A DNA stretch of 64,000 bases from Thiogranum longum (lineage in GTDB: Bacteria > Pseudomonadota > Gammaproteobacteria > DSM-19610). The notes beneath the pieces are model-generated. The model did no database searches, was not told where the DNA came from, and saw only the letters and a list, made by a program, of their open reading frames with translations. The translations under genes and the position numbers were made by a program. The DNA is taken from assembly GCF_004339085.1 (NCBI RefSeq), contig NZ_SMFX01000001.1:1558242-1622241 (forward strand). The letters are read 5' to 3'. This document shows positions 37,759 to 61,209 of this stretch, piece after piece; the first letter of the stretch is position 1; each line of letters opens with the position of its first letter.

Positions 37759-37762
37759 GCCT

Positions 37763-37776
37763 GCGAGTGTACTCGC
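37763..37776 (-). promoter_or_regulatory. Dyad just upstream of merR
   Basis: GCGAGT (37763-37768) and ACTCGC (37771-37776) form a perfect 6-2-6 dyad 4 bases before the merR start codon. It could be part of an autoregulatory site or leader, but it does not match the CCGTAC-N4-GTACGG mer operator, so its role is unknown. Confidence 0.3.
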
Positions 37777-37830
37777 GCAAGCCTAATGAACCAAGCTGCC
37801 TGAGTATGATGGCATTCCTGGAAATACAAC

Positions 37831-37856
37831 CGGTGCCGGGGCAAGTCCCGGCACCG
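37831..37856 (-). terminator. Perfect 10-bp stem-loop after the cytochrome c gene
   Basis: CGGTGCCGGG (37831-37840) pairs perfectly with CCCGGCACCG (37847-37856) around a 6-base loop, 15 bases after the cytochrome stop on the minus strand. The T run beyond it is short. It probably ends the porin-cytochrome transcript before merR. Confidence 0.65.
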
Positions 37857-37871
37857 CTGTACGCCGTTCTG

Positions 37872-38474: not shown

Positions 38475-38486
38475 CGTCATCACTCC

Positions 38487-39749: not shown

Positions 39750-39884
39750 CGGTCTGTCTCCCGGTATGTACCCCGGTATTTCGAATATACGGGGCAAAAA
39801 ATAGGCGTTATAACTCTTGTGTAGCTCCCATCATTCAGATGAAGCGGCGCTACACTAGCGTAGCAGAGTGTGGAAACCCTGCTG

Positions 39885-40277
39885 TCAGGCGAAGTATCGG
39901 GGAGGATGAAGCAGTGGTAGTGGCTTTAGACCGATGAGTCCATGGCCAATATGAAGATCGTATGTTTGAACAAATAATTCCGGAAAAACAGCAAGGCTAT
40001 TAACCGGTACGGCAGGTATGCTGTGAGCAAACGTGCAGTTACCGGTGCAGTTTTTATCAATAGTCTTATCATCGCAACAGCAATCATGCTTGACTGAAAC
40101 AGTAGCTGCCTGATGCAGGACAGTATGATTGTTGCAAGGGGTTGCTGTTGAATCGTGACTGGCATGATCGCAATCAGAAGCAAATACAGGATTGACGGCG
40201 AGCAGTGGCGCAGTCGCCATAACCAGCATCAATAGCCAGCTCAAAATCCCCTGCATTGTGCTGTCATTCCTTGTCAT
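39885..40277 (-). CDS. Secreted Cys/His-rich small protein (CopL/DUF2946-like)
   Basis: About 130 residues: signal peptide, then a mature part rich in cysteine and histidine (DCDHASHD, HDCCCDDKTIDKNCTGNC) and a C-terminal LLHPPRYF. The layout resembles small periplasmic copper-linked proteins of the DUF2946/CopL type. It is probably a metal-binding periplasmic protein. Start is uncertain: ATG at 40277 or ATG at 40256, the latter with AAGGA 11 bases upstream. It lies downstream of the Cus operon, and an exact FNR box sits about 70 bases upstream. A second such protein is at 47156-47536. Confidence 0.65.
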   Translation of the reverse strand: MTRNDSTMQGILSWLLMLVMATAPLLAVNPVFASDCDHASHDSTATPCNNHTVLHQAATVSVKHDCCCDDKTIDKNCTGNCTFAHSIPAVPVNSLAVFPELFVQTYDLHIGHGLIGLKPLPLLHPPRYFA

Positions 40278-40347
40278 CACTGCTCAGCCTGAAAACCCTT
40301 GTTCCTTGTACCGTGATTCAGGCTAAACAGCCACCCGTTCAGCTGCA

Positions 40348-40361
40348 TTGATCTGAATCAA
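40348..40361 (-). promoter_or_regulatory. Exact FNR/Anr-type binding site
   Basis: TTGAT-CTGA-ATCAA matches the FNR/Anr consensus TTGAT-N4-ATCAA in all ten fixed positions and is extended by outer TGCA/TGCA symmetry. Its centre lies about 78 bases before the 40277 start. A weak -10-like TAGCCT at 40325-40320 sits at the spacing of a class II FNR-activated promoter. The likely target is the Cys/His-rich gene and perhaps the porin-cytochrome pair beyond. Confidence 0.6.
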
Positions 40362-40377
40362 TAATGCAGTACTGCAG

Positions 40378-41079
40378 TCAGCACCAGCTCGCATAGCCCT
40401 GTGTCGGACTATCCAGAAGCTCGCTGATATTGGCATCGATGATACGGTAGCCGACGTTACCGTACAGGCGCTGGCGACCTTCATTGAATATCAATGTCGG
40501 GCTGCCCGGGATCTGGTAGCGGTCACGGGCCTCTGTATCCAGGTGAAAAGCAGCGTGTGCGCTGCCATTATCGATCAGCGCATGCACACGCTCAACAGGC
40601 AACCCGAGTTCCGCAGCAATTTGATCCAGCACATCCATACGGGAAATATTCCGGGCCTGTTCGAAAAAGGCGCAGCGAACCCGCCACAGGAACTCCTCGA
40701 AGCGCGTGCGATCATTGTATTCACTGACAGGCGTGACCGGGAAGATACCGTCCTGTTCCAGTTCCTGCAGGGCTTTCAGGTACAGGTGTGCCACGCTCGA
40801 TGACCTGGGCGGGTCATTGAGCCATACATCGGGATGCAGCTTGATATGGTCCCACTGACTGGCAACCTCGTGCAGGTTGCGGTTGAAACCCTCGTACAAT
40901 CCCCGGTCTTTCCAGCCATCCTGAATACGCTCATGGGCCGCGGCAAAAACCGGGACGAACCGGTAGTTCAACGTAACCCTGTCACCATAGTCAGCCTTTA
41001 GCTGATCAATTCGCGGCTGTGCGCCATAGGCCCAGATGCATAACACATCGGAGAACAATTCAACTGTCAGTTCCTGCAA
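40378..41079 (-). CDS. DsbA-family (FrnE/HCCA isomerase-like) thioredoxin-fold protein
   Basis: A 233-residue protein of the DSBA-like family (PF01323 type) with no signal peptide. The redox position reads DVLCIWAYG, i.e. CxxA in place of CxxC, so it cannot form the usual disulfide; C14 and the very last residue (C233) remain. The C-terminal cis-proline part is IPGSPTLIFNEG. It may be a glutathione-dependent isomerase or metal/thiol handling protein. It lies 32 bases after cusA on the same strand, so is probably part of the efflux operon. Confidence 0.75.
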   Translation of the reverse strand: MQELTVELFSDVLCIWAYGAQPRIDQLKADYGDRVTLNYRFVPVFAAAHERIQDGWKDRGLYEGFNRNLHEVASQWDHIKLHPDVWLNDPPRSSSVAHLYLKALQELEQDGIFPVTPVSEYNDRTRFEEFLWRVRCAFFEQARNISRMDVLDQIAAELGLPVERVHALIDNGSAHAAFHLDTEARDRYQIPGSPTLIFNEGRQRLYGNVGYRIIDANISELLDSPTQGYASWC

Positions 41080-41111
41080 CCCATGTACCCCGTGTGTCCA
41101 GCAGCAATATA

Positions 41112-44100
41112 TCAGTCACGGGAAATACGCCCTGACCGGATCTGGTAACCGCGCCAGATCATGAAAGCGGCCGGTATCACCAGCAGCGTCAGCACGGTCG
41201 CGCTGATCATACCACCGACCATGGGCGCTGCAATACGGCGCATCACTTCCGATCCGGTACCGGTGCCCAGCATGATCGGTAACAGACCGGCGATGATCGC
41301 GGCAACGGTCATCATAATGGGCCTTACACGCATCAGCGCACCCTCGATGACCGCTTCACGTAATTCCTTCATGTCAACAGTGCGTTGTTCACGCCACGCC
41401 ACTTCCTGGTGTCGACGGTAGGCCTGGTTGAGGTATACCAGCATGATGACACCAATCTCAACCGATACACCGGCAAGGGCAATGAAACCCACACCCACGG
41501 CCACCGAGATATCATAGTTCAGCCAGTACAGCAGCCAGATACCACCAACCAGTGCCAGCGGCAGGGTACCGAGGATGATCAGCACCTCGGTGAAACGCTG
41601 GAAATTGAGGTACAGCAGCAACACGATGATCCCCAGCGTGACCGGTACCACAGTGGCCAGTTTCTGCTTGGCGCGCTCCATGAACTCGTACTGGCCGGAC
41701 CAGTTGAGCGAGTAGCCAGCGGGCAGGTCGAGCTGCTCGGCAACGACCTGCTTGGCTTCCTTGACGTAGGAACCCAGGTCACGGTCCTGGATATCGATGT
41801 AAATCCAGCCATTGAGACGCGCATTCTCACTCTTGATAACGCCAGGCCCGCTAACGATTTTGACTTCGGCAACGTCACCCAGCGTGATCTGGGCGCCCCC
41901 GGGTGTGCGAATAGGTAATTCTGCCAGTTTGACCTCGGAGTCACGTACCGAACGGGGATAACGCACATTAACCGGGTAGCGCTCGAGGCCCTCTATACTT
42001 TCAGTCACATTCATACCACCGACAGCAGTACTGACAATCTGCTGCACGTCGGCAATATTCAGACCGTAACGTGAAGCGGCCGTACGGTTGATATCCACAA
42101 GTACATAGCGTCCACCGACCACGCGTTCGGAAAATACGGACACGGTACCTTTAACCGGCGTCAGAATGCGTTCGATATCCTTGCCAATGTCCTGAATGAC
42201 CGCAAGATCTGGGCCGGCCACCTTGATGCCGACCGGTGTCTTGATGCCGGTTGCCAGCATATCGATACGGTTTTTGATCGGCATCACCCAGGCATTACTC
42301 ATGCCGGGCACCTTGACCAGTGCATCGAGTTCACGACGCAACTTGTCCATGGTCATTCCCTCACGCCATTCATCCAGCGGCTTGAGCTGGATAGTGGTTT
42401 CGATCATGGTCAAGGGTGCCGGATCTGTTGCTGACTCGGCACGGCCGATCTTACCGAACACACGCTTGACCTCCGGAACCGTCATAATGAGTTTATTGGT
42501 CTGCTGGATGATTTCCTGTGCCTTGCCTATCGACACGGCCGGGAAGGTGCTCGGCATGTACAGCAGATCACCTTCGTTGAGGTCGGGCATGAACTCGGAA
42601 CCCAGCCCGTCATCAAGCGGCCAGAGGCCTGTCAAAGGCCAGAGCATGGAAGCTGCCGCCAGAGTCGAAACCAGTACGATGGTTTTCGGCATTGCAAGTA
42701 CACTATCGATGACCGGCCGGTAACCGGCGATCAGGAACCGGTTGACCGGGTTCCTTTCCTCCGCAACAATCTTGCCGCGAATAAAATAGCCCATCAGGAC
42801 AGGCACCAGTGTGATCGACAGGCCGGCTGCTGCTGCCATGGCATACGTCTTGGTGAACGCCAGTGGGGAGAACATACGACCCTCCTGCGCTTCCAGCGTA
42901 AATACCGGCAGGAAGCTCAGGGTGATGATCAGCAGTGAGAAAAACAGCGCGGGACCAACCTCGGCCGCCGCCTTGGCGACAATATCCCAACGGTTCTCCT
43001 CTGTAATCGTTTCGTGCTCCATGTGTTTGTGCATATTTTCGATCATGACGATTGCCGCATCCACCATCGCACCAATCGCAATCGCAATACCGCCCAGCGA
43101 CATGATATTGGCATTGATGCCCTGCATGTGCATGACGATAAAGGCCGCAAGGATGCCGACCGGCAGACTGAGCAGAACCACAAGCGCTGAACGAATATGG
43201 AAAAGAAACACCGCGCATACCAGCGTCACGACAATGAATTCCTCGACCAGCTTTTCCTTCAGCGTGTCGATTGCACGGTCGATCAGACCGGAACGGTCGT
43301 AGGTCGGGACAATTTCAACGCCGTCGGGCAGACTTGCCTGCAGGGTTTTCAGTTTCTCCTTTACCCCTTCGATGGTCGTTAATGCATTTTCACCCCAGCG
43401 CATGATGATGACGCCGCCGACCACTTCACCTTCACCGTCCAGCTCGGCGATACCACGGCGCATTTGCGGGCCAAGGCGAATATCGGCAATATCTTCCAGC
43501 AACACCGGCGTCCCGTTGGCATTCATGCCCAGCGGGATCTCCCTGAGCTGTTCAATCCCCTGGATATAGCCGGTGGCACGTACCATGTACTCGGCTTCGG
43601 CCATTTCGATGACCGAACCGCCGACTTCCTGGTTTCCGCGCTGAATGGCGCGTTTGACCTTGTCGAGTGAAATGCCATAGGCGCGCAGGCGGTCGGGGTC
43701 AACAACGACCTGGTACTGTTTGACCATACCGCCAATGGTTGCAACTTCCGACACACCGGGGACGGTCTGCAGTTCATATTTCAGAAACCAGTCCTGGATA
43801 CTGCGCAACTGCGACAGATCATGTTGACCGGTACGGTCGACCAGTGCGTACTCGTATACCCAGCCGACACCGGTAGCGTCCGGCCCAAGCGCTGTTGTCG
43901 CGTTGGCGGGCAGGCGGCTTTGCACCTGGCTGAGGTACTCCAGCACACGTGAACGCGCCCAGTACAGGTCGGTACCATCCTCGAAAAGAATATAGACGAA
44001 GGAATCCCCGAAAAAGGAATAGCCACGTACCGTGGTCGCCTTGGGCACTGACAGCATGGTGGTTGTCAACGGGTAGGTAACCTGGTCTTCCACGACCTGC

Positions 44101-44273
44101 GGGGCCTGGCCCGGGAAGCTGGTTTTGATGATGACCTGGACATCGGACAGATCGGGCAGGGCATCCAGTGGTGTATTCTTTAACGAATAACTGCCCCAGG
44201 TAATCAGTCCGATCGTCATCAGCAATACCAGGAAACGGTTCCTGACTGACCAGTGAATGATGTTTGCAATCAT
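41112..44273 (-). CDS. cusA: Cu(I)/Ag(I) efflux RND pump CusA
   Basis: A 1053-residue heavy-metal RND transporter (HME family) with 12 membrane segments and two large periplasmic loops. It exports monovalent copper/silver using the proton gradient, together with CusB and CusC. Visible are [20 protein letters not shown] near the N-terminus and [17 protein letters not shown] in TM4, the proton-relay region typical of HME pumps. A methionine-bearing [10 protein letters not shown] segment fits the Cus rather than Czc group, as does the CusF-like domain of its partner. It follows cusB by 42 bases. Confidence 0.92.
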
Positions 44274-44315
44274 GAGCTAATTCTCTTGAGTGATGGTTTC
44301 GTCGTGACGCTCTGT

Positions 44316-45752
44316 TTATTCAACGACACTGATCGAATCTACGGTGTAGTTCCCCTGATCATCTTTCACCAGCATAAAGTGCACCTTGGCACCGGGTGTA
44401 ATACCCTCCAGGCTGGCATTCTCGTCCAGATTGAAATCCATCGTCATTGCGGGCCACCCGAGCGCCTCGATCGGCTCATGGGAAATGTTCACACGCCGCT
44501 CGCCAGCAAAGATCTCGTTTACGACCCCCATGCCCATCACGGGGGCATCAATCGCAGTGCCTTCTACCGGGTTGTCATCAGACCCCATACGGCTGAAACT
44601 GGCGCGCAGGCTGGCTTCCGAATCAATCAGGAACTGGGCAGATGTCACCACCTTGTCACCCTCGTTCAGGCCCTCCAGGATTTCCACATATTCACCACTT
44701 TCCATACCTGCCACGACCGGCACAGCACGGAAGCGACCTTCACCCAGGGAAAGCACCACACGCTGGGAATCGCTGTCCTTGATCAGGGCCTCACGCGGAA
44801 TACTCAGCACGTTTTCTTTTGGTCCTGCGTAGATACGTACATCGGCATACATATCCGGTTTGAGTGTTTCGTCGGGATTGTCGAATTGCAAACGCGCCTG
44901 CAGGGTGCGCGTTTTCGGATCTATGGTCGGGTATACGAACTCGACGTTACCTTCCCATTCCCGCCCCGGGATATATCCCAGCCTGACTTCGGCCGGCTGT
45001 CCGGCAGCCACCCATGCGGACTGGCGTTCGAACACATCGACCAGCAACCATACCGAGGACAGGTCTGCCAGCGCCAGGACTTCTGTACTGGGTTTGACAT
45101 ACATGCCTTCCCGTACATTGAGATTATTAACAATGCCATCCTGGCTGGCGAGAATGCGTACCTGCTGGAAGGCGCGGCGCTTGCTGGCAACCTCACGGAT
45201 TTGCTGTTTACTCATGCCCAGCGCTTCCAGCCGTTCTTTTGATGCGCGTGTAAGATAATCATTACTGCCGCGCAGCGCCTGAATATATTCTTCCTGGGCA
45301 TTGACCAGTTCACGTGAATACAGCTCCAGTAGTACGTCACCTTTTTTGACACGCTCACCGTTGGACTTGACCGTGAGTTTCTCGATCCAGCCATCCGTTC
45401 GCAGGTGCAGGTGGCTGAGCTTGCGCTCATCAAATGCCACATAACCAACAGCCTCGATCATGCGCCAGAGCTTTCCGCGCTCGACCTTTGCGGTACGAAC
45501 CCCCAGGTTCTGCACCATGACCGGGTTAATTTTGACAATATCGCCTTCATTTTCTGCGTCGGCATAGACCGGAACCAGGTCCATTCCCATCGGCGACTTA
45601 CCGGGTTTTTCTCGACGATAGCCGGGATCCATCGGGGCGACCCAGTAGAGAATTTCCTTGTCTTCGGCAGCAGACGCCGGTGTTGATTTCAAGGCAGACA
45701 TACCACTTGCCATAATCACGGCAAGACAGAGTGAGGTGACAGACAGTTTCAT
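44316..45752 (-). CDS. cusB: CusB membrane-fusion protein with C-terminal CusF-like domain
   Basis: A 478-residue periplasmic adaptor. After a signal peptide (about 1-28) comes a heavy-metal-binding segment (residues 36-63, APMDPGYRREKPGKSPMGMD), then barrel-sandwich, hairpin and beta-barrel domains of CusB. Residues 405-478 form a CusF-type OB domain with the copper-binding set H425, W433, M436 and M438 (ISHEPI, GWPAMTMDF). In E. coli CusF is separate; here the chaperone is fused. The start overlaps the cusC stop (ATGA). Confidence 0.92.
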   Translation of the reverse strand: MKLSVTSLCLAVIMASGMSALKSTPASAAEDKEILYWVAPMDPGYRREKPGKSPMGMDLVPVYADAENEGDIVKINPVMVQNLGVRTAKVERGKLWRMIEAVGYVAFDERKLSHLHLRTDGWIEKLTVKSNGERVKKGDVLLELYSRELVNAQEEYIQALRGSNDYLTRASKERLEALGMSKQQIREVASKRRAFQQVRILASQDGIVNNLNVREGMYVKPSTEVLALADLSSVWLLVDVFERQSAWVAAGQPAEVRLGYIPGREWEGNVEFVYPTIDPKTRTLQARLQFDNPDETLKPDMYADVRIYAGPKENVLSIPREALIKDSDSQRVVLSLGEGRFRAVPVVAGMESGEYVEILEGLNEGDKVVTSAQFLIDSEASLRASFSRMGSDDNPVEGTAIDAPVMGMGVVNEIFAGERRVNISHEPIEALGWPAMTMDFNLDENASLEGITPGAKVHFMLVKDDQGNYTVDSISVVE

Positions 45753-47080
45753 GGGTTATCTCCCGGGTTATTCTGGGCGTCAGGCAATTCGGCAGCCAGG
45801 AACAGCAGAGCAGCCGCAGCTTTTGCGCGATCGACGCGGATGCGGATGTCCTGCAGGCTTACTTCCAGTTCCATCAGCCGTGCCCGCATCAGGGATGTGA
45901 ATTCATTGATCCCGTTCTGGTAGGACGACAGCGCGGCATCGGCATTCGCGTGTGCCTCACGCAGCAAATTATCGCGGTAAAGGGTTTCCTGTTCACCCAG
46001 TCGTTCCCAGCGTGCGTAGTCTGCGTCCAGCATGCGTCGCAGTTCGCGCAAACGTTGTTCGCGCGCCTGTATCGCGGCACCGGCCAATGACTGGCTTGCG
46101 GACAATTGCCTGTCTTGCCGTTTGTCAGTAAACAGGGGCAGGTCGAGTGTCACCATGGCTGCCATCATATCGGTGCGGGAACTACCATCAGGGTTATCGC
46201 CAAAACGCTTGCGGTATTCCACACCGACATTGAACCCGGGCTTGTACTGTTCACGTGCAGCCTTGACCAGTTGTTGCCTGGACTCAACCCGTGCACTGGC
46301 CGCCTCGATTGCCGGGTGTGAGAGCAGGCCGGTGCGCAGTTGATCCCGCTCAGGTAAAGCAGGCAGTTCAGGGAAAGTTTCATCGATCGGTGCCCAGGCG
46401 CGCTCGCCCAGCCAGCGGCTTAGTCTGGCACGCTGGATATCGGCCTGCTTGCTGATGCGGGTAGCGCGGTCATCCAGGCGTGACAGTTCCAGTTGTGCCT
46501 GCAGCACATCCTGCTGGCTGACACGCCCACTGGCGAAATGTGAACGGGTGATCTCGACCAGTTGCTGGAACAGGTTGCGTGACTGCTGCACGATCCCGGC
46601 AGCCCGTTGCTGGTAAAACAGTTCAAGCCATGCCTGTCTGACATCACGTTGTATTTCAAGTCGTGTCGTGCGCGTCCTGGAGGCTTCTGCCTTACCCATC
46701 CATTCCGTACTGCGCTGCCGGTATTCCAGTGAGTTGCCACGCGGGAAAGCCTGGCGTATACCGGTACGCAGCTGGGTGGTTGGTTCACGACTGATGCTGA
46801 AATCATCAACCGGTACGTTCCACATCCCCAGCAAAAGCTTTGGATCCGGTAACTGGCCGGCGGCAACAGACTGCTCTCGTAGCGCCTCGGCTCTTGCCCG
46901 ACTGGCGATAATGGCCGGGTCTTCTGTCTGCGCCAGTTGCTCGGCCTCTTCCAGTGTCAACATGGATGCGGCCTGACTGATGCCCGGGCCAAGGCCCATT
47001 GCCAGCACTGACAGTGCTCCAACCAGCATTGAAAAGGCGGTATTACGCCTGAAATAAGTATTAATACGACACTCAGACAT
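45749..47080 (-). CDS. cusC: TolC-family outer-membrane channel CusC
   Basis: A 443-residue outer-membrane efflux protein of the TolC family: signal peptide, then two long helical repeats (residues about 45-230 and 240-430), the TolC pattern LTLEEAEQLAQTEDPAI near the start. No lipobox cysteine is seen, so unlike E. coli CusC it may not be a lipoprotein. The ATG at 47080 has GGAG 8 bases upstream and is preferred over TTG at 47095. First gene of cusCBA, 75 bases after the small Cys/His-rich gene. Confidence 0.88.
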   Translation of the reverse strand: MSECRINTYFRRNTAFSMLVGALSVLAMGLGPGISQAASMLTLEEAEQLAQTEDPAIIASRARAEALREQSVAAGQLPDPKLLLGMWNVPVDDFSISREPTTQLRTGIRQAFPRGNSLEYRQRSTEWMGKAEASRTRTTRLEIQRDVRQAWLELFYQQRAAGIVQQSRNLFQQLVEITRSHFASGRVSQQDVLQAQLELSRLDDRATRISKQADIQRARLSRWLGERAWAPIDETFPELPALPERDQLRTGLLSHPAIEAASARVESRQQLVKAAREQYKPGFNVGVEYRKRFGDNPDGSSRTDMMAAMVTLDLPLFTDKRQDRQLSASQSLAGAAIQAREQRLRELRRMLDADYARWERLGEQETLYRDNLLREAHANADAALSSYQNGINEFTSLMRARLMELEVSLQDIRIRVDRAKAAAALLFLAAELPDAQNNPGDNP

Positions 47081-47155
47081 GTCGGTAGCTCCCAAATTGA
47101 GTCACAACAACACACGGCACAACGGCGCGTGCGTCAGATTACGATCAAGGAGGTA

Positions 47156-47536
47156 CTATACAGGTGGACGAAGCAGGGGCGGCGCACTGTGTGACAGCAG
47201 ACCGTTTATCAGGCAGGCGCTATAGCTTACGGTGTTGTGGTCCAGTGCAGCCAGGCCGGGGGATTGAATCAAAGACAGGTTATGGCCCGCAGAGCAACCG
47301 TGACTGGCGCAGTTGTGGTCATCGCAGCTGTCATCCTTGCAATGCAGGCAGTCCGGTGTCATTTGTCCGTCTGCGCTTTGGGCTGACAGATCAGAGCCCG
47401 CAGGGGTGTTGTGATTCATGTCCATCATCATGCAATCTCCCTTGCCCGCAATGGCAGCAGCCGCATCCAGCGCCGCCATTGGCGACAGCGTCAGCAGCAA
47501 GGAAATGATCAAAGACAAGATGTTACGACTCAACAT
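47156..47536 (-). CDS. Secreted Cys/His/Met-rich small protein
   Basis: A 126-residue protein with a signal peptide and a mature part carrying DCMMMDMNHNTP, CLHCKDDSCDDHNCASHGC and a PLLRPP end. The cysteine, histidine and methionine clusters suggest Cu(I) binding in the periplasm; the plan resembles the 39885-40277 protein and CopL/DUF2946-type proteins. It is encoded directly upstream of cusCBA on the same strand and is probably the first gene of that transcript. A TTGCGT-N16-TATACT promoter-like pair (47572-47545) lies so close to the ATG that a leaderless mRNA would result. Confidence 0.7.
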   Translation of the reverse strand: MLSRNILSLIISLLLTLSPMAALDAAAAIAGKGDCMMMDMNHNTPAGSDLSAQSADGQMTPDCLHCKDDSCDDHNCASHGCSAGHNLSLIQSPGLAALDHNTVSYSACLINGLLSHSAPPLLRPPV

Positions 47537-47659
47537 GAGTTCACAGTATAAATGATGTCAGGACACACGCAAGCTGTGACCTGTCAGAGACCAGTAAGTT
47601 CATGGCAACCGGATCGGCCGATTCCGGAAAATATGTATTCAGGTCTGCTGAAGATCGCA

Positions 47660-48517
47660 TCATCCGGCTCCACCCATATCGGGCTGGAGCCGCTCCAGCA
47701 ATTGATCTATCAATGACCGGTGCTCGCCATGAATAGGAAATACCGCGTAACTTTTGAGCAGGATTTCCGGCGCATCCGGTACCCGCCATAATTTACCCAT
47801 AGCGATATCCGCTTCCACCAGTGTGGCAGGAAGATAGGCTGCCCCTCCACAATTCTCGATAAGGCCAAGCGCAATACTGCCAACATTGGCACGTACAGCC
47901 GCAATCGGACGTTGTGGAAAATGGCTTTCATGCAGGCTGGTAAATGAAGTGCCCCAGTCGACGCGAACATAACCTTCCGCCAGTGCACGATCGACCGGAA
48001 TATCCTGTTCGGTTGAGACCATGATCATGGAAACGTCCCTGACTTCCTGCACAACCATGTCACGTAAGCGCGGTGGCTCGAACAGAAACCCAAGGTCGAT
48101 AATCCCTTGTTCGAGCTTCTGAACGATACGTTTCGAAGTCCCGGCCTCGGCGCGCAGCCCGATAAGGGGAGCGCTGCAATGAATACCGTTGAGCCAGCCC
48201 TGCAAGTAGATTTCCCAAAGGCTGGACAGTCCGCCGATGACCAGGCGCTTGTCGACCTGGTCACTGAGTGCGACTTCTTCATGCGCCCGTTCCCAGGCGC
48301 CTACAATAAACCGGGCGTGGCGTTCGAAACGTTCGCCCGCCGGTGTCAGGCTGACTTTCTGTCGATCGCGTCGAAACAACGACAATCCCAGCGTGTCTTC
48401 CAGCTGGCGAACGCGTGCGCTAACCGCTGACGGGGAAATAAACAGGTTCTCGGCGGCTTTGCGAAAATTTCGCATGCGGTCGACTTCCAGAAAGGTCTTG
48501 AGTTGCTCGATATCCAT
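47660..48517 (-). CDS. LysR-family transcriptional regulator
   Basis: A 285-residue LysR-type regulator: N-terminal winged HTH (FLEVDRMRNFRKAAENLF, SPSAVSARVRQLEDTLG, LFRR) and a C-terminal substrate-binding-like domain. It resembles HdfR-like members. It is divergent from the SLC13 permease gene across a 147-base gap with two perfect dyads, the usual arrangement for a LysR regulator and its target, so it most probably controls the permease and perhaps nhaD. The inducer is unknown. Confidence 0.85.
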   Translation of the reverse strand: MDIEQLKTFLEVDRMRNFRKAAENLFISPSAVSARVRQLEDTLGLSLFRRDRQKVSLTPAGERFERHARFIVGAWERAHEEVALSDQVDKRLVIGGLSSLWEIYLQGWLNGIHCSAPLIGLRAEAGTSKRIVQKLEQGIIDLGFLFEPPRLRDMVVQEVRDVSMIMVSTEQDIPVDRALAEGYVRVDWGTSFTSLHESHFPQRPIAAVRANVGSIALGLIENCGGAAYLPATLVEADIAMGKLWRVPDAPEILLKSYAVFPIHGEHRSLIDQLLERLQPDMGGAG

Positions 48518-48540
48518 GACACGTGTGCTAAAATCTTGTT

Positions 48541-48587
48541 CAAATTGGCCTGTTTAATTTGCTTCTCAGTATACAGACAGTTGTATA
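48541..48587. promoter_or_regulatory. Two dyads in the lysR/permease divergent region
   Basis: CAAATT (48541-48546) and AATTTG (48556-48561) form an inverted repeat with a 9-base spacer. TATACA (48570-48575) and TGTATA (48582-48587) form one with a 6-base spacer. Both are perfect; the first has the T-N11-A geometry often bound by LysR-type proteins. They are candidate operators for the adjacent regulator. Confidence 0.5.
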
Positions 48588-48664
48588 ACATCCGCGCGTC
48601 GTTTTACGGACTTCACAAAATATTCACTATATGCCGCATTAAAATAATCCGGTAAGAGATTGTT

Positions 48665-50623
48665 ATGAATATAAATGTTTCATCATCCGCACTGCGTCAG
48701 ATTCTCGCGGGGCTGGTATTTCTGGTGGTAGCACTGGCGCTTGCCACCGTAACACCCAATATCGAAATTGCCTGGGTGTCCGGCATATTGATGCTCACGA
48801 TCTATTTATTTGTATTCGAAATCGTCGGCGTTGATGTCGCTGCCGTGAGTATCATGGTGTTGCTGGGGCTGACTTCACTGTTTGCCCCCCTTATGGGGCT
48901 GGAGCAGGGGCTGGTCGATAACCAGAAACTGTTCAATGGCTTTGCCAGTAATGCAGTGATGTCCATTATTGCGGTTATGATCATCGGCGCGGGTCTTGAT
49001 CGTACCGGCCTGATGAGCAAGGTGGCGACCTTTATATTAAAGGTAGGCGGCACGACCGAGACACGCATTATCCCGATTATCTCCGGCACTGTGGCTATCA
49101 TCTCTTCCTTTATGCAAAACGTCGGCGCCGCAGCACTGTTTCTCCCGGTCGTCAGTCGTATCTCGGCCCGCTCAGGCTTGCCGCTGTCGCGCCTGCTGAT
49201 GCCGATGGGTTTCTGCGCCATTCTTGGCGGTACAGTTACCATGGTCGGTTCGTCACCGCTGATTCTGTTGAATGACCTGATTCTCACCTCCAACGAGGCC
49301 TTGCCGGCTGACCAGCAAATGCATACCTGGTCACTGTTTTCAGTGACACCGGTTGGCCTGGCCCTGGTCGTTACGGGAATTATCTATTTTGTGATTGCAG
49401 GGCGCTTCGTATTACCGACAAGCCAGAGTGAAAACAGCACCACCGGTGCAAGCACCATGGACTATTTCAAGGATGTCTATGGCATTAACTACGAGTTGTT
49501 TGAAATCGTGGTGCCCGATGACAGCCCGCTGGTAGGGAAGCAACTTGATGATGTGGAATCGGATTACCGGATCCGTATCATTGCCAGCAAACGTTCCGGC
49601 CAGGAAAGCCTGGTGGGCCCGAACGGTCTTGCGCGTGACACCAAGATTGAAGCCGGTATGGTGCTTGGAGTGGTAGCTGCCGAAAAGAATATCCAGAATT
49701 TTGTCTCAAAGTACGGGCTGAGACTGCGTGGCGAGTTACGCAGTTTTACTGACTCCTTGTCATCGGCCAAGGCGGGTATTGCGGAAATTGTAATTCCACC
49801 CGGTTCCCAGTTGATCGGCAAGAGTGCCCGCGACGTATGGATGCGCAAAACCTATGGTATGGCGCTGATCGCCTTGCACCGTAATGGCAAGACCTTGCGT
49901 GAAGGGGACAACATTCGTGAGCTGCCGTTTGAAGCAGGTGACACGCTGGTGGTACACACGGCCTGGGATGCACTGGCACGACTTGAGAAGGACCGCAATT
50001 TTGTGGTGGTCACTACCGAGTACCCGCACGAAGAATCACGTCCTCACAAGGTTGCCTGGGCAGGCCTGTTCTTCACAATTGCCCTGACCATGGTGCTTTT
50101 CACTGACCTTCGTCTGTCTGTGGCGTTGCTCACCGGCGCCATCGGCATGATTTTGTCAGGCGTGATCAAGATAGAAGAAGCGTACGAGGCGGTATCCTGG
50201 AAGACCGTCTTCCTGCTGGCGAGCCTGATACCGCTCGGCCTTGCAGTGGAAACCTCAGGTACCGCAAAGTGGATAGCGGAACAAACACTGTCTGTCGTTG
50301 GTGACATGCCAATATGGGTTATTCAGGCCGCTGTTGCAGCACTGGCGACCTTCTTTACGCTGGTTATGTCGAATGTTGGCGCAACAGTACTGCTGGTTCC
50401 GTTGGCCGTTAACATTGCGATTGGCGTTGGGGCCGACCCGGCGCTGTTCGCACTGACGGTGGCCATTGCCACATCCAACTCCTTCCTGATCCCGACCCAC
50501 CAGGTGAATGCACTTATTATGGGTCCAGGTGGATACCGGGTGCCGGACTTTATCCGTGCGGGTGGCGTCATGACAATTTTGTTCCTGATTGTCTCCATGG
50601 TCATGATGAATATTGTTTTCTAG
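48665..50623 (+). CDS. SLC13/DASS-type anion permease with two TrkA-C (RCK_C) domains
   Basis: A 652-residue membrane protein: an N-terminal half with about six helices (residues 8-250), two RCK_C/TrkA-C-like cytosolic domains (about 275-345 and 365-450) and a second membrane half. This plan belongs to the SLC13-like ArsB/NhaD-superfamily permeases for sulfate, dicarboxylates or other anions. The substrate is not readable. SSFMQNVGAAALFLPV and TLVMSNVGATVLLVPL are the paired substrate/Na+ loop motifs. It is 19 bases upstream of nhaD on the same strand. Confidence 0.87.
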   Translation: MNINVSSSALRQILAGLVFLVVALALATVTPNIEIAWVSGILMLTIYLFVFEIVGVDVAAVSIMVLLGLTSLFAPLMGLEQGLVDNQKLFNGFASNAVMSIIAVMIIGAGLDRTGLMSKVATFILKVGGTTETRIIPIISGTVAIISSFMQNVGAAALFLPVVSRISARSGLPLSRLLMPMGFCAILGGTVTMVGSSPLILLNDLILTSNEALPADQQMHTWSLFSVTPVGLALVVTGIIYFVIAGRFVLPTSQSENSTTGASTMDYFKDVYGINYELFEIVVPDDSPLVGKQLDDVESDYRIRIIASKRSGQESLVGPNGLARDTKIEAGMVLGVVAAEKNIQNFVSKYGLRLRGELRSFTDSLSSAKAGIAEIVIPPGSQLIGKSARDVWMRKTYGMALIALHRNGKTLREGDNIRELPFEAGDTLVVHTAWDALARLEKDRNFVVVTTEYPHEESRPHKVAWAGLFFTIALTMVLFTDLRLSVALLTGAIGMILSGVIKIEEAYEAVSWKTVFLLASLIPLGLAVETSGTAKWIAEQTLSVVGDMPIWVIQAAVAALATFFTLVMSNVGATVLLVPLAVNIAIGVGADPALFALTVAIATSNSFLIPTHQVNALIMGPGGYRVPDFIRAGGVMTILFLIVSMVMMNIVF

Positions 50624-50642
50624 CGTTTTTCAAGGAAGAAGT

Positions 50643-53951
<3,309 letters not shown>

Positions 53952-54124: not shown

Positions 54125-54988
54125 ATGACAAACAACAGCCCCGGAAAGATATTTGTACGCGCTATAGCTATTACAGTACTTTTGTTGGTTTCTGCGCAGG
54201 CGTCAGCCGACACACCACAACAACGACCAGCCTATCTTACTTTCGGTTTCCTGCCGATTGTCAGTCCGGAACGCCTGGTAAAACGCTTCGCACCATTGGT
54301 GGATTATCTGTCGCGTGAAACCGGTATCGAAATACGCATGGTGACAGCACCGGATTTCCTGACCTTTGTTCATCGCACACAGGATGAGCAACGTTACGAC
54401 CTGTTATTCACCGCACCTCACCTTTATTACCTCGCACACGCGAGACGTGGTTATCACGTCATTGCAAGGGTCGATCGTCCAGGTATGCAAGCGGTCATCG
54501 TCGCACCGCATCGAAGCAGGATATATAAACTACAGGACTTGCGCAGCAAGCGACTGGCTACAACCGACCCGCTTGCACTGACGACCGTACTGGTCAGGGA
54601 ACACCTTGAGGCAAACGGGATTGATCCTGACAATGACCTCACTCTGGTCGCCACTCCCAGCCACAATGCCTCATTACTATCGGCCTACCAGGGAGCCACC
54701 GATGCTGCAGCGCTCATATTACCGCTATTTCGGCGTGCCAACCCGCAAGTGCGCGAGTCTATGCGCATTATTGATACAACACGTATGGTGCCTCACATGC
54801 CGATTGCCGTTGCACCATGGATTGACCCTGCACTCGGAGAGAGGATTGCCAGTGCGCTGGTCTCACTGAACGAATCACCGGATGGCCGCACCCTGCTCTC
54901 CCACCTTGACTGGCCTGGCTTCGTTACTGCCAACGAAGAAGAATACGCGTCTCTTGAAGGGATTGTACGTGCACTGAAGGTGCCATAG
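54125..54988 (+). CDS. PhnD-like periplasmic substrate-binding protein
   Basis: About 287 residues: signal peptide (cleavage near SAQASA) and a PhnD/PtxB-like type II periplasmic-binding fold (LTFGFLPIVSPERLVKRFAPLVDYL, VTAPDFLTFVHR, YDLLFTAPHLYYLAHARRG, LATTDPLALTTVLVREHL). Such proteins bind phosphate, phosphite, phosphonate, arsenite (AioX) or other oxyanions. No ABC permease or ATPase is nearby; a sensor kinase follows after 2 bases, so a sensory role is likely. An upstream ATG at 54098 is possible. Confidence 0.85.
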   Translation: MTNNSPGKIFVRAIAITVLLLVSAQASADTPQQRPAYLTFGFLPIVSPERLVKRFAPLVDYLSRETGIEIRMVTAPDFLTFVHRTQDEQRYDLLFTAPHLYYLAHARRGYHVIARVDRPGMQAVIVAPHRSRIYKLQDLRSKRLATTDPLALTTVLVREHLEANGIDPDNDLTLVATPSHNASLLSAYQGATDAAALILPLFRRANPQVRESMRIIDTTRMVPHMPIAVAPWIDPALGERIASALVSLNESPDGRTLLSHLDWPGFVTANEEEYASLEGIVRALKVP

Positions 54989-54990
54989 TT

Positions 54991-56718
54991 ATGCTGGTAT
55001 CACCGTTTCGGTCGCTGCGTGTGCGCCTGATTGTCGGCGTCGTCATGATTGAGATTGTCATGCTTTCCCTGCTTGTGTGGAGCAACCTTGCTGTTATTCG
55101 ACAGGCTCACGGCGACCGTCTGCGGGATACGGCCAACAGTATTCTCGAACAAATTACCACAACCACGGGCAGCTATCTTGTCGAGGTCGATTATGCGGCA
55201 CTGGAAGAATACCTGCACAATATCGCCAAACAGGATGAACTCACCTACCTGGCAGTACTTGACCGGGACCAACGCCCCGTCGTTTCACTCGGGACACTGC
55301 CGGATAAACCATGGCCGAAAACGGAAACTGACCCACTGGCTGTAGAGGATGGCACCTTTGACGTAGCCGGTGATATTTTTATCGGTGGAAAACCCATGGG
55401 GCATGTCAGGCTGGGGTTCTCGCTTGACCGGATGGAGCAGTCCATCGAGCAGGCGAAAATACGCAGTGTCATTATTGCCGGTACCGAAATTACACTTACC
55501 ATCATACTGACGGTTTTCTTCGGTATTCGTCTGACCCGGAGAATCGGCAAGCTGGCCAGTGCTGCTCAACGCGTAGGGGCCGGAGACTACAGTGTCAAAC
55601 TGGATACCGGCCAGGCCGATGAAGTCGGTATGACCGCGCGGGCCTTCAATCGTATGGTCACCGAGATCTCCCGTCGTACCCGCCGTTTGCAGGAGACGCT
55701 GGCGCGTGAACGTGTCATCGAGGAAACCGCCATCGATGGCATGATTACCTATGACTCGCAGTGTTGTATTCTTTCCGCCAACCCGGCGATGACAACGTTG
55801 TTCGGGTATCCGGAAGCCACGCTGGTTGGTCATTTGACGACCGTGTTACTTGAGCATGCAGACCAGGCCGAATGGAAGAATGCAACCGGTTCGCGTCGTG
55901 AAGCTGGCGGACGTCGCAAGGACGGCAGCTGTTTTCCGCTTGAGTGGTATGTCGGCAAGGTCGATATTAACGGGGAACCTCTTTTTGCGGCCACCCTGCA
56001 CGACATAACCGAACGTAAACAGGCAGAACAGGAATGTATGACCCTGCTGGAGGGAAATCGCTTCCTGATTCATAAATCACTCGCGGTGCAGGAGGAAGAA
56101 CGCCGCAACCTCGCGCGTGAACTTCACGATGAACTGGGCCAGTGCACCACAGCCATACAGGCCGATGCGGAAATCATTCATGAGTTGTCCCGGCAGCGTG
56201 ACAGCAAGATCGAAACCAGCGCAGCGGCCATCCTGAATGTTTCCGCCCGCATCTATGATGTCGTACATTCCATGATGCAACGCTTGCGACCCAGTGTACT
56301 GGATGATCTTGGACTGGTTGCTGCACTGGAGGAAGAAGTCGAAGCCTGGCGTAACCGGCATGCTGACGTTAATTGCCGGTTTATCACCAGTGGTGATCTT
56401 TCCTCACTGGGTGAAGCCATTAACATAACGGTATACCGCATTGTCCAGGAGAGTCTTACCAATGTAGCCCGACACGCTGAAGCCAGTGAGGTGGTCATAC
56501 GTTTGACTTGCGTAATGGATACGGCCCCCCCTCATCTCCTGCTTTCCATAAGCGATAACGGCAAAGGGACAGGCCCGGACACACGGGGTCGCGGTCTGGG
56601 GCTGATTGGCATGCGCGAACGTGTTGAAGCACTGGATGGATGCCTTACTATACACTCTGGGCCCGGTGAAGGAATGACCATCGAGGCAAGTATTCCCGTA
56701 TCGGAAACGGTTACATAA
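54991..56718 (+). CDS. Sensor histidine kinase with HAMP and PAS domains (NarX/UhpB group)
   Basis: A 575-residue membrane kinase: TM1 about 10-32, a 130-residue periplasmic sensor, TM2 about 160-185, HAMP about 186-238, PAS about 250-355, HisKA_3 with the phospho-histidine H379 (ARELHDELGQ) and a HATPase domain ending in GLGLIGMRERVEALDG. The periplasmic part could contact the PhnD-like protein encoded 2 bases upstream. The cognate regulator gene starts 2 bases downstream. Confidence 0.92.
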   Translation: MLVSPFRSLRVRLIVGVVMIEIVMLSLLVWSNLAVIRQAHGDRLRDTANSILEQITTTTGSYLVEVDYAALEEYLHNIAKQDELTYLAVLDRDQRPVVSLGTLPDKPWPKTETDPLAVEDGTFDVAGDIFIGGKPMGHVRLGFSLDRMEQSIEQAKIRSVIIAGTEITLTIILTVFFGIRLTRRIGKLASAAQRVGAGDYSVKLDTGQADEVGMTARAFNRMVTEISRRTRRLQETLARERVIEETAIDGMITYDSQCCILSANPAMTTLFGYPEATLVGHLTTVLLEHADQAEWKNATGSRREAGGRRKDGSCFPLEWYVGKVDINGEPLFAATLHDITERKQAEQECMTLLEGNRFLIHKSLAVQEEERRNLARELHDELGQCTTAIQADAEIIHELSRQRDSKIETSAAAILNVSARIYDVVHSMMQRLRPSVLDDLGLVAALEEEVEAWRNRHADVNCRFITSGDLSSLGEAINITVYRIVQESLTNVARHAEASEVVIRLTCVMDTAPPHLLLSISDNGKGTGPDTRGRGLGLIGMRERVEALDGCLTIHSGPGEGMTIEASIPVSETVT

Positions 56719-56720
56719 CG

Positions 56721-57359
56721 ATGAGCAAAGTAAGTGTACTGCTGGCGGACGATCATGAAGTTGTGCGCGCAGGCTATCGCCGCCTGTTCGAAAACACCGG
56801 GGACATAGATGTCGTGGCCGAGGCCACTGACGGTGAACAGGCCTACCAGTTATATATGGAGTATAAGCCGGGTGTGGTGGTCATGGACCTCACCATGCCG
56901 GGCATCGGTGGCCTGGATGCATGCCGCCGTATTCTCGCGCGTGACCGTAATGCACGTATCCTGGTGTTCAGCGTGCATGAAAACGAAATCTTCCTGAACC
57001 GGGCACTGGACCAGGGTGTACTCGGCTATATCTCCAAACGCAATGCATCACGGGTCATGATAGAGGCAGTTCGCTGTGTCGCGCGCGGTGAGTTGTTTAT
57101 TGGTCAGGAGATGATGCCATTCCTGGTCAAGCGCAAGGCCTCGCAGGATAGCCAGCAGATGGCAGGCCTGTCGCCACGCGAATTCGAGATCTTTCGTTTG
57201 CGTGCAGACGGCAAGAGTGTGAATGAAATTGCCGATCTGCTCAGCCTCAGCCCCAAGACCGTTGGACACCACAACACCAGCGTGAAGCAGAAGCTGGGCA
57301 TTGCCAACGAGGCCGAACTGACACGGCTGGCCATTCGCCTCGGGGTTATCGACGCATAA
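56721..57359 (+). CDS. LuxR/NarL-type response regulator
   Basis: A 212-residue response regulator. The receiver domain shows ADDHEVVRAGYRRL, phospho-acceptor D56 in VVMDLTMPG and the KRNAS lysine; a LuxR HTH follows (LSPREFEIFRLRADGKSVNEIADLL, SPKTVGHHNTSVKQKL). It pairs with the kinase directly upstream. The secreted metallophosphatase gene 290 bases downstream is the nearest candidate target. Confidence 0.93.
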   Translation: MSKVSVLLADDHEVVRAGYRRLFENTGDIDVVAEATDGEQAYQLYMEYKPGVVVMDLTMPGIGGLDACRRILARDRNARILVFSVHENEIFLNRALDQGVLGYISKRNASRVMIEAVRCVARGELFIGQEMMPFLVKRKASQDSQQMAGLSPREFEIFRLRADGKSVNEIADLLSLSPKTVGHHNTSVKQKLGIANEAELTRLAIRLGVIDA

Positions 57360-57367
57360 CCTCATCC

Positions 57368-57448
57368 CGTCATTGCGAGCGCAGCGCGGCAATCTTTTTC
57401 AGTCTGCTGCCAGTAGTTGGAGATTGCTTCGCTGCGCTCGCAATGACG
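57368..57448. repeat. REP/MITE-like palindromic element
   Basis: CGTCATTGCGAGCGCAGCG (57368-57386) pairs perfectly with CGCTGCGCTCGCAATGACG (57430-57448); with the inner GCAATC/GATTGC the stem is 27 bp with two mismatches, around a loop of about 27 bases. Repeats starting CGTCATTGCGAG are scattered through many bacterial genomes as small palindromic elements. It lies 8 bases after the response-regulator stop, so it can also act as a terminator. I noticed no second copy in the window. Confidence 0.8.
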
Positions 57449-57597
57449 ATAATACTATAATTATCATATAGGTATTGATAGTTCTTAAAGTACACTATTA
57501 CCCTGGATCAGGTTATCTTGTACGCTTTTTAAGGATTTTCCCTATTACCTGAAAACCTCCTCCCACTTAGGGTACCAACTGCTAAAAAGCAGAAGAA

Positions 57598-57627
57598 CGG
57601 TATTGATGCAAACAGACAGCAATACCG
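57598..57627 (+). promoter_or_regulatory. Hairpin in the 5' leader of the metallophosphatase gene
   Basis: CGGTATTG (57598-57605) pairs perfectly with CAATACCG (57620-57627) around a 14-base loop, ending about 10 bases before GAGGAGG. It may affect mRNA stability or translation. Confidence 0.4.
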
Positions 57628-57649
57628 AAATCATCCTGAGGAGGAGAAA

Positions 57650-59863
57650 ATGAAGTCACTTAATCTACCCCGTGCGGTGCACAGGGCATTATTGCCCATG
57701 GCCCTTGCAATGGGTGCACTTTCATCACAAGTACACGCTGGCGATTCCATTACGCTCATCGAGATGGGCGACCTTCACGGGACACTGGTTCCGCACGCCG
57801 CAGTACTTAAAAACCCTGATGGCAGCGAGCGCGAAGTTGCCAGTTCCGGCGGCCTTGCAAGACTTAAAACCGTTGTCGATAGCATCCGTGCCGATAATCC
57901 CGAAGCCGTCCTTCTTTCTACCGGCGATCTCACTCACGGCAGTGCTGAAACAATGTTTACCGTGGGTGACGCGATGATGGTCCCCATGAATGCCTTTGGT
58001 ATCGATGTCTATACACCTGGCAACTGGGATTTTGGCTACGGTGCAGCCGTGTTCCGCAATCGTTTCGCCAGCAAACCGCCTTTCCCCACCATTCCGGGGA
58101 ATATTCGTGTTATGGCGCGTAATGTTGGCTGTAATGACATACCTGTTATCGAGGGGCTCACCGATGGCACCTACGTATGCAGTGAGAACACGGCCAATAC
58201 AGCACCTTTCCCGACACCGGAAGGCGACAGTGTAATCCGTGCCAGTTTCCCGGCTGTTGCAGTCAACCTGTACAACGCTGCCCCGCTACCAACACCTCTG
58301 CATGGAAAACGGGTGCTGGATGCCTACAAAATTCTTGATCGCAACGGTGTAAAGATTGCGGTCATCGGGCTTACAGCAGCGATCGTTCCCCAGCAGGCAG
58401 ACACGTTTAACATTGGACTGAGATTCACCCAGGGTGTTGAAGAGCTTCCGGGCATTATCGATGAAGTCAAGGCGCAGGGTGCCGAGCTGATCGTGGTTCA
58501 GTCAGAACTTGGTTTGTCGCAAAATATTAAAATTGCACAAAGCTTCAGCGACATTGACGTCATGTATTCAGCGCATACACATGAAGTAACTCTGGGTGCA
58601 CTGCTGGCCCGGAAAGACAAAGTACTGCGCACTACGCCTGGAAAAAAACTGAGCCGAAAAGAACGCAGGCAGCTGCGACGGGGCGCCGCGATAGTGGTAG
58701 AGACAAATCGTGACATGTATGTTGGTCGTCTCGATCTGGAAGTTGAGTCCGGGCAAGTTGTAGATTTTGACTGGGAAGCTATCCCGGTTGATGAGTCCGT
58801 CCCTGAAGACCCGGATATGGCCGCACTGGTTGCTGCCATGGAAGAGGACTTTGTCTCCGGTGAAGATGGCGAAGTTGCACGTCACACCTTCATGCCCGGT
58901 GGTTTCGGCGGCAACCCTTCCCTGCGCGGTCTGCAGTTGACCGATGACCTGGATACAGTTGTCGGTTATACCGATACCCTGTTACTCAGGCACCATGTGC
59001 TGGAGGACACGCTGAATAACTTTATCGCAGACGGAATTCTTGCGGTTTCGGACAGTGTTGCAGATGTGCGTAATGTGCCGGGCTGGGAGAACGGTGTGGA
59101 TATCTCCATGGCAAACGGCTTCCGCTTCGGTAATGCCGTGCTGCCGGGTCAGCCGATTACCCTGCGCGATCTCTATACCTGGTTCCCGATTGCACCGGCG
59201 GTAAACATTGCCGATTTCTCCGGTCAGTCCATCCAGAACAGTCTCGATGTTATCCTGAACGCTGTGTTTAACCGCAACACCTTCCTGCAACGCGGTGGCT
59301 GGTATCTGGGCCTGGCAAATATGGAGCAGAAGATCGATCTCAAGAACCGCCCCTTCAGCAGCTCGAGTGGTCGCATTGTCGAAACGAAGATTGGTGGTCA
59401 GCCACTTGATCTCGGCAAGCGTTATGTGTTCGCCTCCTGCTACGGTCATGGTAATCCGCTGGACGATGTTTGTCGTACCGGTGGTGGCGCCAACCACAAG
59501 TTTTTCCAGCTTGCGGATCCTGATGATTACACCAGCGCAATCAGTCTGGCCGAGCCAGTCAACAAGATCGGGGTCATAGTGGGACCAACCGTGCAACAGG
59601 TGGCACCGGATAACTTCCTGCACCCTGTTCATGCCCTGCGCCGCTATCTCGACGCTCTGCCGGATAACACGGTGACAGAAGCCGAGTTTGGTGCCAATCG
59701 CGGGCGTATTGTCACTGTTGACTCAAAGAACCCCGGAAATCTTCCGCAGGATCCCGAGTTGCAGATCGGACAGCCGGATAACACGCCAGACCCTACCTAT
59801 GTCCAGCCTCCGTTTGGCGCCGGTCCGGCTTTCTTTAGCGGTCGCATTGGGGAAGACAACTAA
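57650..59863 (+). CDS. Secreted metallophosphatase of the 5'-nucleotidase/SoxB-like family
   Basis: A 737-residue protein: Sec signal peptide (about 1-30), calcineurin-like phosphoesterase domain (about 34-390) and a 5'-nucleotidase C-terminal domain (about 440-650). Metal-site motifs are EMGDLHGT, STGDLTHGS, PGNWDFGYG and SAHTHEV. In ordinary 5'-nucleotidases the third motif is GNHEFDYG; here tryptophan replaces the histidine, as in SoxB (GHWEFTYG). True SoxB is about 560 residues and belongs with soxAXYZ, absent here. A basic insertion (KKLSRKERRQLRRG) lies near residue 325. The likely substrate is a nucleotide or other phosphate/sulfur ester in the periplasm. Confidence 0.82.
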   Translation: MKSLNLPRAVHRALLPMALAMGALSSQVHAGDSITLIEMGDLHGTLVPHAAVLKNPDGSEREVASSGGLARLKTVVDSIRADNPEAVLLSTGDLTHGSAETMFTVGDAMMVPMNAFGIDVYTPGNWDFGYGAAVFRNRFASKPPFPTIPGNIRVMARNVGCNDIPVIEGLTDGTYVCSENTANTAPFPTPEGDSVIRASFPAVAVNLYNAAPLPTPLHGKRVLDAYKILDRNGVKIAVIGLTAAIVPQQADTFNIGLRFTQGVEELPGIIDEVKAQGAELIVVQSELGLSQNIKIAQSFSDIDVMYSAHTHEVTLGALLARKDKVLRTTPGKKLSRKERRQLRRGAAIVVETNRDMYVGRLDLEVESGQVVDFDWEAIPVDESVPEDPDMAALVAAMEEDFVSGEDGEVARHTFMPGGFGGNPSLRGLQLTDDLDTVVGYTDTLLLRHHVLEDTLNNFIADGILAVSDSVADVRNVPGWENGVDISMANGFRFGNAVLPGQPITLRDLYTWFPIAPAVNIADFSGQSIQNSLDVILNAVFNRNTFLQRGGWYLGLANMEQKIDLKNRPFSSSSGRIVETKIGGQPLDLGKRYVFASCYGHGNPLDDVCRTGGGANHKFFQLADPDDYTSAISLAEPVNKIGVIVGPTVQQVAPDNFLHPVHALRRYLDALPDNTVTEAEFGANRGRIVTVDSKNPGNLPQDPELQIGQPDNTPDPTYVQPPFGAGPAFFSGRIGEDN

Positions 59864-60342: not shown

Positions 60343-60426
60343 AGCCTCGCATTCTAGCGAAAACTCAAGTTTTTCGTTCAGATTCCCCTATATAAGACAT
60401 AATTACCTCATGGACGGGAGCCATTG

Positions 60427-61209
60427 ATGGCGTCGGGCGGTTTCTTCAGGAAATTTCGAATAACCCTGCTTTTGCTGGTGCTTTTCTTTGTCGGCATGAA
60501 CAGTTGGCTGACAAAGCTACGCACTACAGACTGGGATGAACCACTATGGGTGGTGATCTATCCGGTTAATGGTGACGGAGGATCCGCAACCTCGCGCTAC
60601 ATCAATAGCCTTGGTGCCGATGATTTCAGTGATGTTGAGGGCTTCTTCGCCCGTGAAGCAGGTCGCTATGACGTGCAGATCACCGAACCGGTGACGGTCA
60701 AACTTGCCCCGCTGGTTACTGAACGTCCTCCCCTGCCGCCAGCCAACGCCAGCACCCTGTCTATTATGCTGTGGAGTCTAAAGCTGCGTTACTGGGCGGC
60801 CACACACGACACCTTCAATGGCCCCGAACCCGATGTGCAGATGTTCGTTGTCTACTACGACCCGAAAACACACCAGCGGCTGAGGCACTCTCTGGGATTA
60901 CAAAAGGGTCTGATCGGCGTCGTCAACGCATTTGCCGGCCCTGCGCAGTCGAAACGTAACAACGTCGTTATAGCCCATGAATTTCTGCATACCGTAGGCG
61001 CCAGCGACAAGTACGACCCACAGAACAACCAGCCCCTCTATCCGGAAGGTTTCGCAGAACCGGACCTGGACCCGGTTTACCCACAAAAGTATGCCGAAAT
61101 CATGGCTGGCCGCATTCCGGTTGCCAGTCACGATGCTGTCATGCCAACTTCGTTATCCAGTTGCGTGGTTGGCCCAAAGACTGCCAACGAAATCCACTGG
61201 ACAGATTAA
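60427..61209 (+). CDS. Membrane-anchored putative metalloprotease
   Basis: About 260 residues: one N-terminal hydrophobic anchor (about 8-25) and a periplasmic part with a zinc-protease signature, HEFLHTVGASDKYDP (HExxH plus a downstream D/Y segment). The last 40 residues include IMAGRIPVAS and a conserved-looking MPTSLSSCVVGP. No closer family is recognised; a substrate cannot be inferred. ATG at 60427 is chosen over TTG at 60424. It ends 37 bases before the next gene on the same strand. Confidence 0.65.
   Translation: MASGGFFRKFRITLLLLVLFFVGMNSWLTKLRTTDWDEPLWVVIYPVNGDGGSATSRYINSLGADDFSDVEGFFAREAGRYDVQITEPVTVKLAPLVTERPPLPPANASTLSIMLWSLKLRYWAATHDTFNGPEPDVQMFVVYYDPKTHQRLRHSLGLQKGLIGVVNAFAGPAQSKRNNVVIAHEFLHTVGASDKYDPQNNQPLYPEGFAEPDLDPVYPQKYAEIMAGRIPVASHDAVMPTSLSSCVVGPKTANEIHWTD

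Follow-up and report, generated by a model that had tools for sequence, protein, structure and literature searches.

The window, the whole stretch of 64,000 nucleotides that was analyzed, lies within a complete 2.92 Mb genome whose host is very probably a sulfur-oxidizing gammaproteobacterium. Four genes of this stretch (Table 1) encode a PhnD-fold periplasmic binding protein (X), a membrane histidine kinase (S), a NarL/FixJ-type response regulator (R), and a SoxB-like metallohydrolase. The X-S and S-R gaps are 2 bp each, and no ABC permease or ATPase genes adjoin XSR among the locus neighbors checked; domain matches and coordinates agree with the initial annotation, which had described a PhnD-like protein, a HAMP-PAS kinase, and a LuxR-type regulator with 2-base gaps and no ABC genes. 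Judged from sequence, X and the enzyme have signal-peptide-like N termini, ending in ASA and VHA, respectively. Upstream of X are merC and merA, which are divergent; the metal region of the window (36526-53951) comprises genes for an arsenite methyltransferase, a MerR-type regulator, and a CusA-type efflux pump as well as merC and merA. The enzyme gene is followed by a gene for a small receiver-like protein and then by a gene without a Pfam match. A conserved neighbor at 60424-61206 has a HEFLH motif resembling zinc peptidases and no Pfam or NCBIfam match.

Table 1. Features of the XSR-enzyme locus (positions within the window)
Feature	Position	Strand	Evidence
X, secreted PhnD-fold periplasmic binding protein, probable ligand sensor	54125..54988	+	PF12974 2e-50, 172 bits; best PDB sequence match ArrX 2e-18
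S, membrane histidine kinase	54991..56718	+	Periplasmic loop, HAMP, PAS, HisKA_3, HATPase_c
R, NarL/FixJ-type response regulator	56721..57359	+	Response_reg receiver and GerE/LuxR HTH; conserved Asp56, Lys106
Dispersed palindromic repeat between R and promoter, not a functional leader of the enzyme gene	57367..57449		Genome copies; missing in relatives; no Rfam match
Possible degenerate second operator, 22 bp upstream of main operator	57508..57522	+	Partly conserved alignment columns; weak
Operator TAAGGATTTTCCCTAT, inverted repeat TARGG-n5-CCYTA, predicted R site	57530..57545	+	Kept in all XSR+enzyme genomes; only exact copy in genome
Predicted -10 box TAGGGT	57568..57573	+	TA[AG]NNT at offset 22-23 in 14/14 promoter rows
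SoxB-like dinuclear metallohydrolase, secreted, 737 aa, predicted target gene	57650..59863	+	Metallophos and 5_nucleotid_C; NCBIfam SoxB 7e-54, below equivalog cut-off

The palindrome between R and the enzyme gene matches the genome 79 times; as the majority of copies score on both strands, this corresponds to about 40 places. It is absent from the R-enzyme interval of relatives in the promoter-region alignment, has no Rfam family match, and precedes both the conserved operator and the -10 box. The structured leader that had been seen before the enzyme gene is therefore a real palindrome but a dispersed repeat located 5' of the promoter, and a riboswitch or attenuator was rejected on these grounds.

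The best family of the enzyme is NCBIfam SoxB (TIGR04486), but its score of 183 bits is under the 550-bit equivalog cut-off; the true SoxB of the genome, whose gene lies elsewhere in a group with soxA and one for a cytochrome c, reaches 888 bits with the same model. The catalytic motif of 5'-nucleotidases of the UshA/CD73 type, GN-H-E/D-xx-D, is absent from the enzyme, where GNHExxD is represented by GNWDFGY, with loss of the His-Asp dyad and replacement of the catalytic His by Trp. The enzyme motifs GFRFG and QRGG, on the other hand, resemble GFRWG and QQGG of SoxB. Structure searches with the enzyme model do not separate SoxB from nucleotidases by Z-score, as the values for SoxB (2wdc: Z 34.1, rmsd 2.5) and CD73 (Z 33.8, rmsd 3.5) are tied. 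On the evidence of family score, Trp, and motifs, the enzyme is SoxB-like and not a standard nucleotidase. It shares with the SoxB thiosulfohydrolases the fold, the Trp in place of the catalytic His, and the FR(F/W)G and Q(Q/R)GG motifs, but it is longer, is encoded outside a sox cluster, and has Glu in place of a His that binds metal in both SoxB and the nucleotidases. This substitution, which is found throughout the enzyme group, marks a distinct subfamily whose chemistry may differ, and the group is set apart from the 5'-nucleotidases, under which such enzymes are often annotated. Two SoxB-like paralogs are found elsewhere (L106:2954-15257), clustered with a SoxA/TsdA-domain cytochrome, DsrE, DUF6691, and a SulP-like permease.

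X scores 79 bits against the PhnD equivalog, which has a cut-off of 261, and it resembles the transport binding proteins PhnD, PtxB, and HtxB in fold but differs from them in the absence of ABC genes and in a changed binding pocket. The closest solved structure by sequence is ArrX, which ties with PtxB in a profile search. At the positions of Tyr88, Cys106, Tyr131, Ser161, and Ser163 of AioX, the residues of X are Phe, Ala, Met, Ala, and Thr/Ala/Ser, respectively, and His192 alone is kept; the position of Tyr138 of ArrX is also Met, and both pocket Tyr residues and the Ser-Thr-Ser motif of phosphite and phosphonate binders are lost. It should be noted that these pocket comparisons are drawn from sequence alignment only, because the domains in the model of X are badly placed (poor domain orientation, rmsd about 11 over both lobes). 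With neither the Cys of AioX nor the pocket Tyr and Ser, the aligned residues exclude binding of arsenite by AioX chemistry and make arsenate, phosphite, and phosphonate unlikely ligands; a nucleotide role, which had also been proposed, is unlikely because the nucleotidase motif of the enzyme is lost. Three other proteins of the window genome (L101, L102, and L103) are PhnD-fold binding proteins whose genes are each directly followed by a kinase gene, with no ABC genes seen, and L101 retains the phosphite/phosphonate pocket motif.

These observations bear on the possibility of phosphorus scavenging, in which X would sense phosphate, phosphite, or phosphonate and R would induce a secreted 5'-nucleotidase or phosphatase. 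Such a role would suit the membership of X and the enzyme in the PhnD and UshA fold families, but it is unlikely in view of the pocket of X, which lacks residues that another protein of the same genome keeps, the loss of the His-Asp dyad from the enzyme, and the absence of pho and phn genes from the conserved unit.

The initial annotation drew a parallel with the arsenic XSR systems, which is apt, but the closest of these appears to be ArrXSR of Chrysiogenes arsenatis rather than AioXSR. AioXSR and ArxXSR have the same X-S-R gene logic, but their regulators are of the AtoC type, with an AAA+ domain and RpoN promoters (PMC5908839), whereas R is of the NarL/FixJ type; also, the arsenite ligand Cys106 is absent from X. 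ArrXSR has a separate PhnD-fold X, a kinase, and a NarL/FixJ-like regulator, and the published ArrR motif, tcaggtttttccctga (PMC5908839), matches the TCAGGATTTTCCCTAT form of the operator at 13/16 positions. Together with the match of X to ArrX, this indicates an ArrXSR-like module. Its output enzyme is new, a SoxB-like hydrolase and not arsenate reductase, and its binding pocket is altered, the Tyr, Cys, and Ser residues being replaced. As in the arsenic systems, X is encoded with a kinase and a regulator without a transporter, and a regulator site lies upstream of the target gene, although the latter is recognized here by comparison only. The arsenic molybdoenzyme that stands beside XSR in those systems is not found; its place is taken by the SoxB-like hydrolase in all linked loci. 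It is very unlikely that the system is an ArrXSR relative that answers arsenate or arsenite and controls an arsenic-related hydrolase; ArrX as best PDB sequence match, the resemblance of the operator to the ArrR motif, and the presence of arsM 17 kb away in the window genome would fit this explanation, but the AioX Cys106 and ArrX Tyr138 positions are changed in X, and only four genes are common to the loci, with no arsenic gene among the annotated surrounding ORFs of relatives.

X has orthologs in 14 enzyme-bearing genomes (window genome counted), but, because 9 of the 14 belong to one genus, the counts are not independent. The initial annotation had made its proposal depend on linkage of the enzyme gene to the three-component genes in relatives, and linkage of all four is seen in 13 genomes from four families (G000, G001, G003, G005, G011, G014, G015, G016, G017, G140, G174, G155, and G254, window counted). 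The set is unbroken in G003, G005, G014, G017, G174, G140, and G155, the order in G155 being enzyme-X-S-R; it is divided by a contig break in G001, G011, G015, and G016, with both contig ends overlapping, and the enzyme contig of G254 stops within the last part of R. In G009, XSR and the enzyme gene are on separate contigs, and other genes occupy the expected place in each. The flanks of the set vary between loci. The PAS domain is missing from the S orthologs of G003 and G155, suggesting that the essential input of S is probably periplasmic.

The enzymes fall with strong support into two subtypes, and these conflict with the tree of R: the R of G011 clusters with those of G015 and G016, but its enzyme clusters with that of G155, and the enzymes of G015 and G016 cluster with those of G005 and G014. 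Both subtypes sit behind the same operator, and enzyme genes appear, from these trees, to have been swapped between loci while the switch (R and its site) stayed. At L174:9711-12899, the enzyme of G155 is 78-81% identical to that of the window, and X is 43-46% identical; the comparison suggests that the G155 enzyme was acquired by transfer together with its promoter.

A regulatory connection is supported by a 16-base inverted repeat, TMAGGANTTTCCCTAT, that lies ahead of the enzyme gene in 14/14 genomes with XSR and enzyme. It has inverted TARGG-like half-sites with a 5-bp spacer and the consensus T(A/C)AGGA(T/G)TTTCCCTAT, of which 14/16 columns are fixed, while most flanking columns are free to vary, in an alignment of 14 promoter rows that represent 13 genomes, the two G016 rows coming from a single locus whose contig ends overlap, with G254 examined separately. 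A TA(A/G)NNT box follows the operator by 22 or 23 bp in every row, which places the operator centre near -42, the position used by class II activators. The operator is present before the enzyme gene of G009, although XSR is unlinked, and before that of G155, where the enzyme gene is the first of the set. The exact 16-mer occurs once in the window genome; 18 further near matches (<=3 mismatches) are mostly within genes, and a wider regulon of R was rejected on these grounds. With respect to autoregulation, no site (<=4 mismatches) was found just before X in four scanned loci from other families. Sites with <=1 mismatch in 39 relatives are nearly always before the enzyme only.

When 369 genomes sampled across the class were searched for X, the enzyme, and the site, the site was present in 7/7 genomes with XSR and enzyme but in 0/5 that have the enzyme without X, 0/3 whose X relative comes with a kinase that is a hybrid or has a different end, and 3/354 of the remainder (G041, G093, and G095, all without the enzyme), against a chance estimate of roughly 4. 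In G101 and G112, which have no XSR (L194 and L195), the enzyme gene and an ECF sigma factor gene are divergent, and this suggests that the enzyme gene is under different control there; a rhodanese is encoded nearby in G112. The least probable of the alternatives is that XSR and the enzyme are mere neighbors and the 16-mer belongs to another regulator, since, although binding of R to the 16-mer is a prediction, the site is found in all genomes with XSR and enzyme, even when these are unlinked, and is missing from those with the enzyme only. Activation of the enzyme gene by R through the 16-base site is strongly supported by these genome comparisons, and the link from XSR to the enzyme that had been predicted from the window is upheld by conserved linkage and by an operator that marks the enzyme promoter even where unlinked.

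In the mechanism that we propose, X would bind a small ligand in the periplasm, and the loaded protein would be read by S, as suggested by the operon structure and by AioXSR and ArrXSR; S would phosphorylate R, as its domains imply, and dimers of R would bind TMAGGANTTTCCCTAT, centered near -42, at a sigma70-type promoter and so activate the gene of the SoxB-like enzyme, which would be exported to hydrolyze a periplasmic substrate. We consider it probable that XSR is a dedicated three-component sensor-actuator, similar to ArrXSR, that drives the SoxB-like enzyme.

As regards the ligand, PhnD-like domains sense thiosulfate in ThsS and tetrathionate in TtrS (PMC5408782). The system described here would be similar to ThsSR and TtrSR in PhnD-like sensing of sulfur oxyanions, and the operators are of the FixJ-like inverted-repeat type, but the sensor domain is fused to the kinase in those systems and is a free protein in this one. 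SoxB cleaves trithionate (PMC5336275) and is active on tetrathionate (PMC7608252), so that a polythionate-type substrate is a fair guess for the enzyme. SoxB as best family and among the best structures, the SoxB-like Trp and motifs, the paralog beside a SoxA/TsdA cytochrome and DsrE, and the soxB-soxA-cytochrome c group of the genome are counted in favor of sulfur, and we put at about even chances the proposal that the ligand is a reduced sulfur oxyanion (thiosulfate or polythionate) and the enzyme a sulfohydrolase that acts on this ligand or its product. The more extended proposal, which we advance tentatively and hold slightly more doubtful than not, is that X is the first free-standing polythionate/thiosulfate binding-protein sensor in sulfur chemolithotrophs and that the enzyme represents a new class of secreted SoxB-like polythionate hydrolases under a single-target regulon; if this is true, the regulatory module of ArrXSR has been co-opted for sulfur.

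Sulfur oxidizers are responsible for much of the sulfur cycle. Their means of sensing thiosulfate and related compounds are poorly known, as one paper states (PMC10451225). A literature search found no paper that describes an XSR-SoxB-like enzyme system, and, as XSR is apparently dedicated to one SoxB-related enzyme through a conserved site, it would seem to be a switch for sensing sulfur compounds that has not been described before. The switch is compact, consists of a sensor, an operator, a promoter, and one target, all predicted, is kept in four families, and is a possible new biosensor part. TtrS-like fusions of a PhnD domain and a kinase are also encoded at L104:4923-7936, where a FixJ-type regulator follows, and at L090:13760-16748; the former is in the window genome and is separate from XSR, and in G017 a TtrS-like fusion is located ~3 kb from the XSR-enzyme set.
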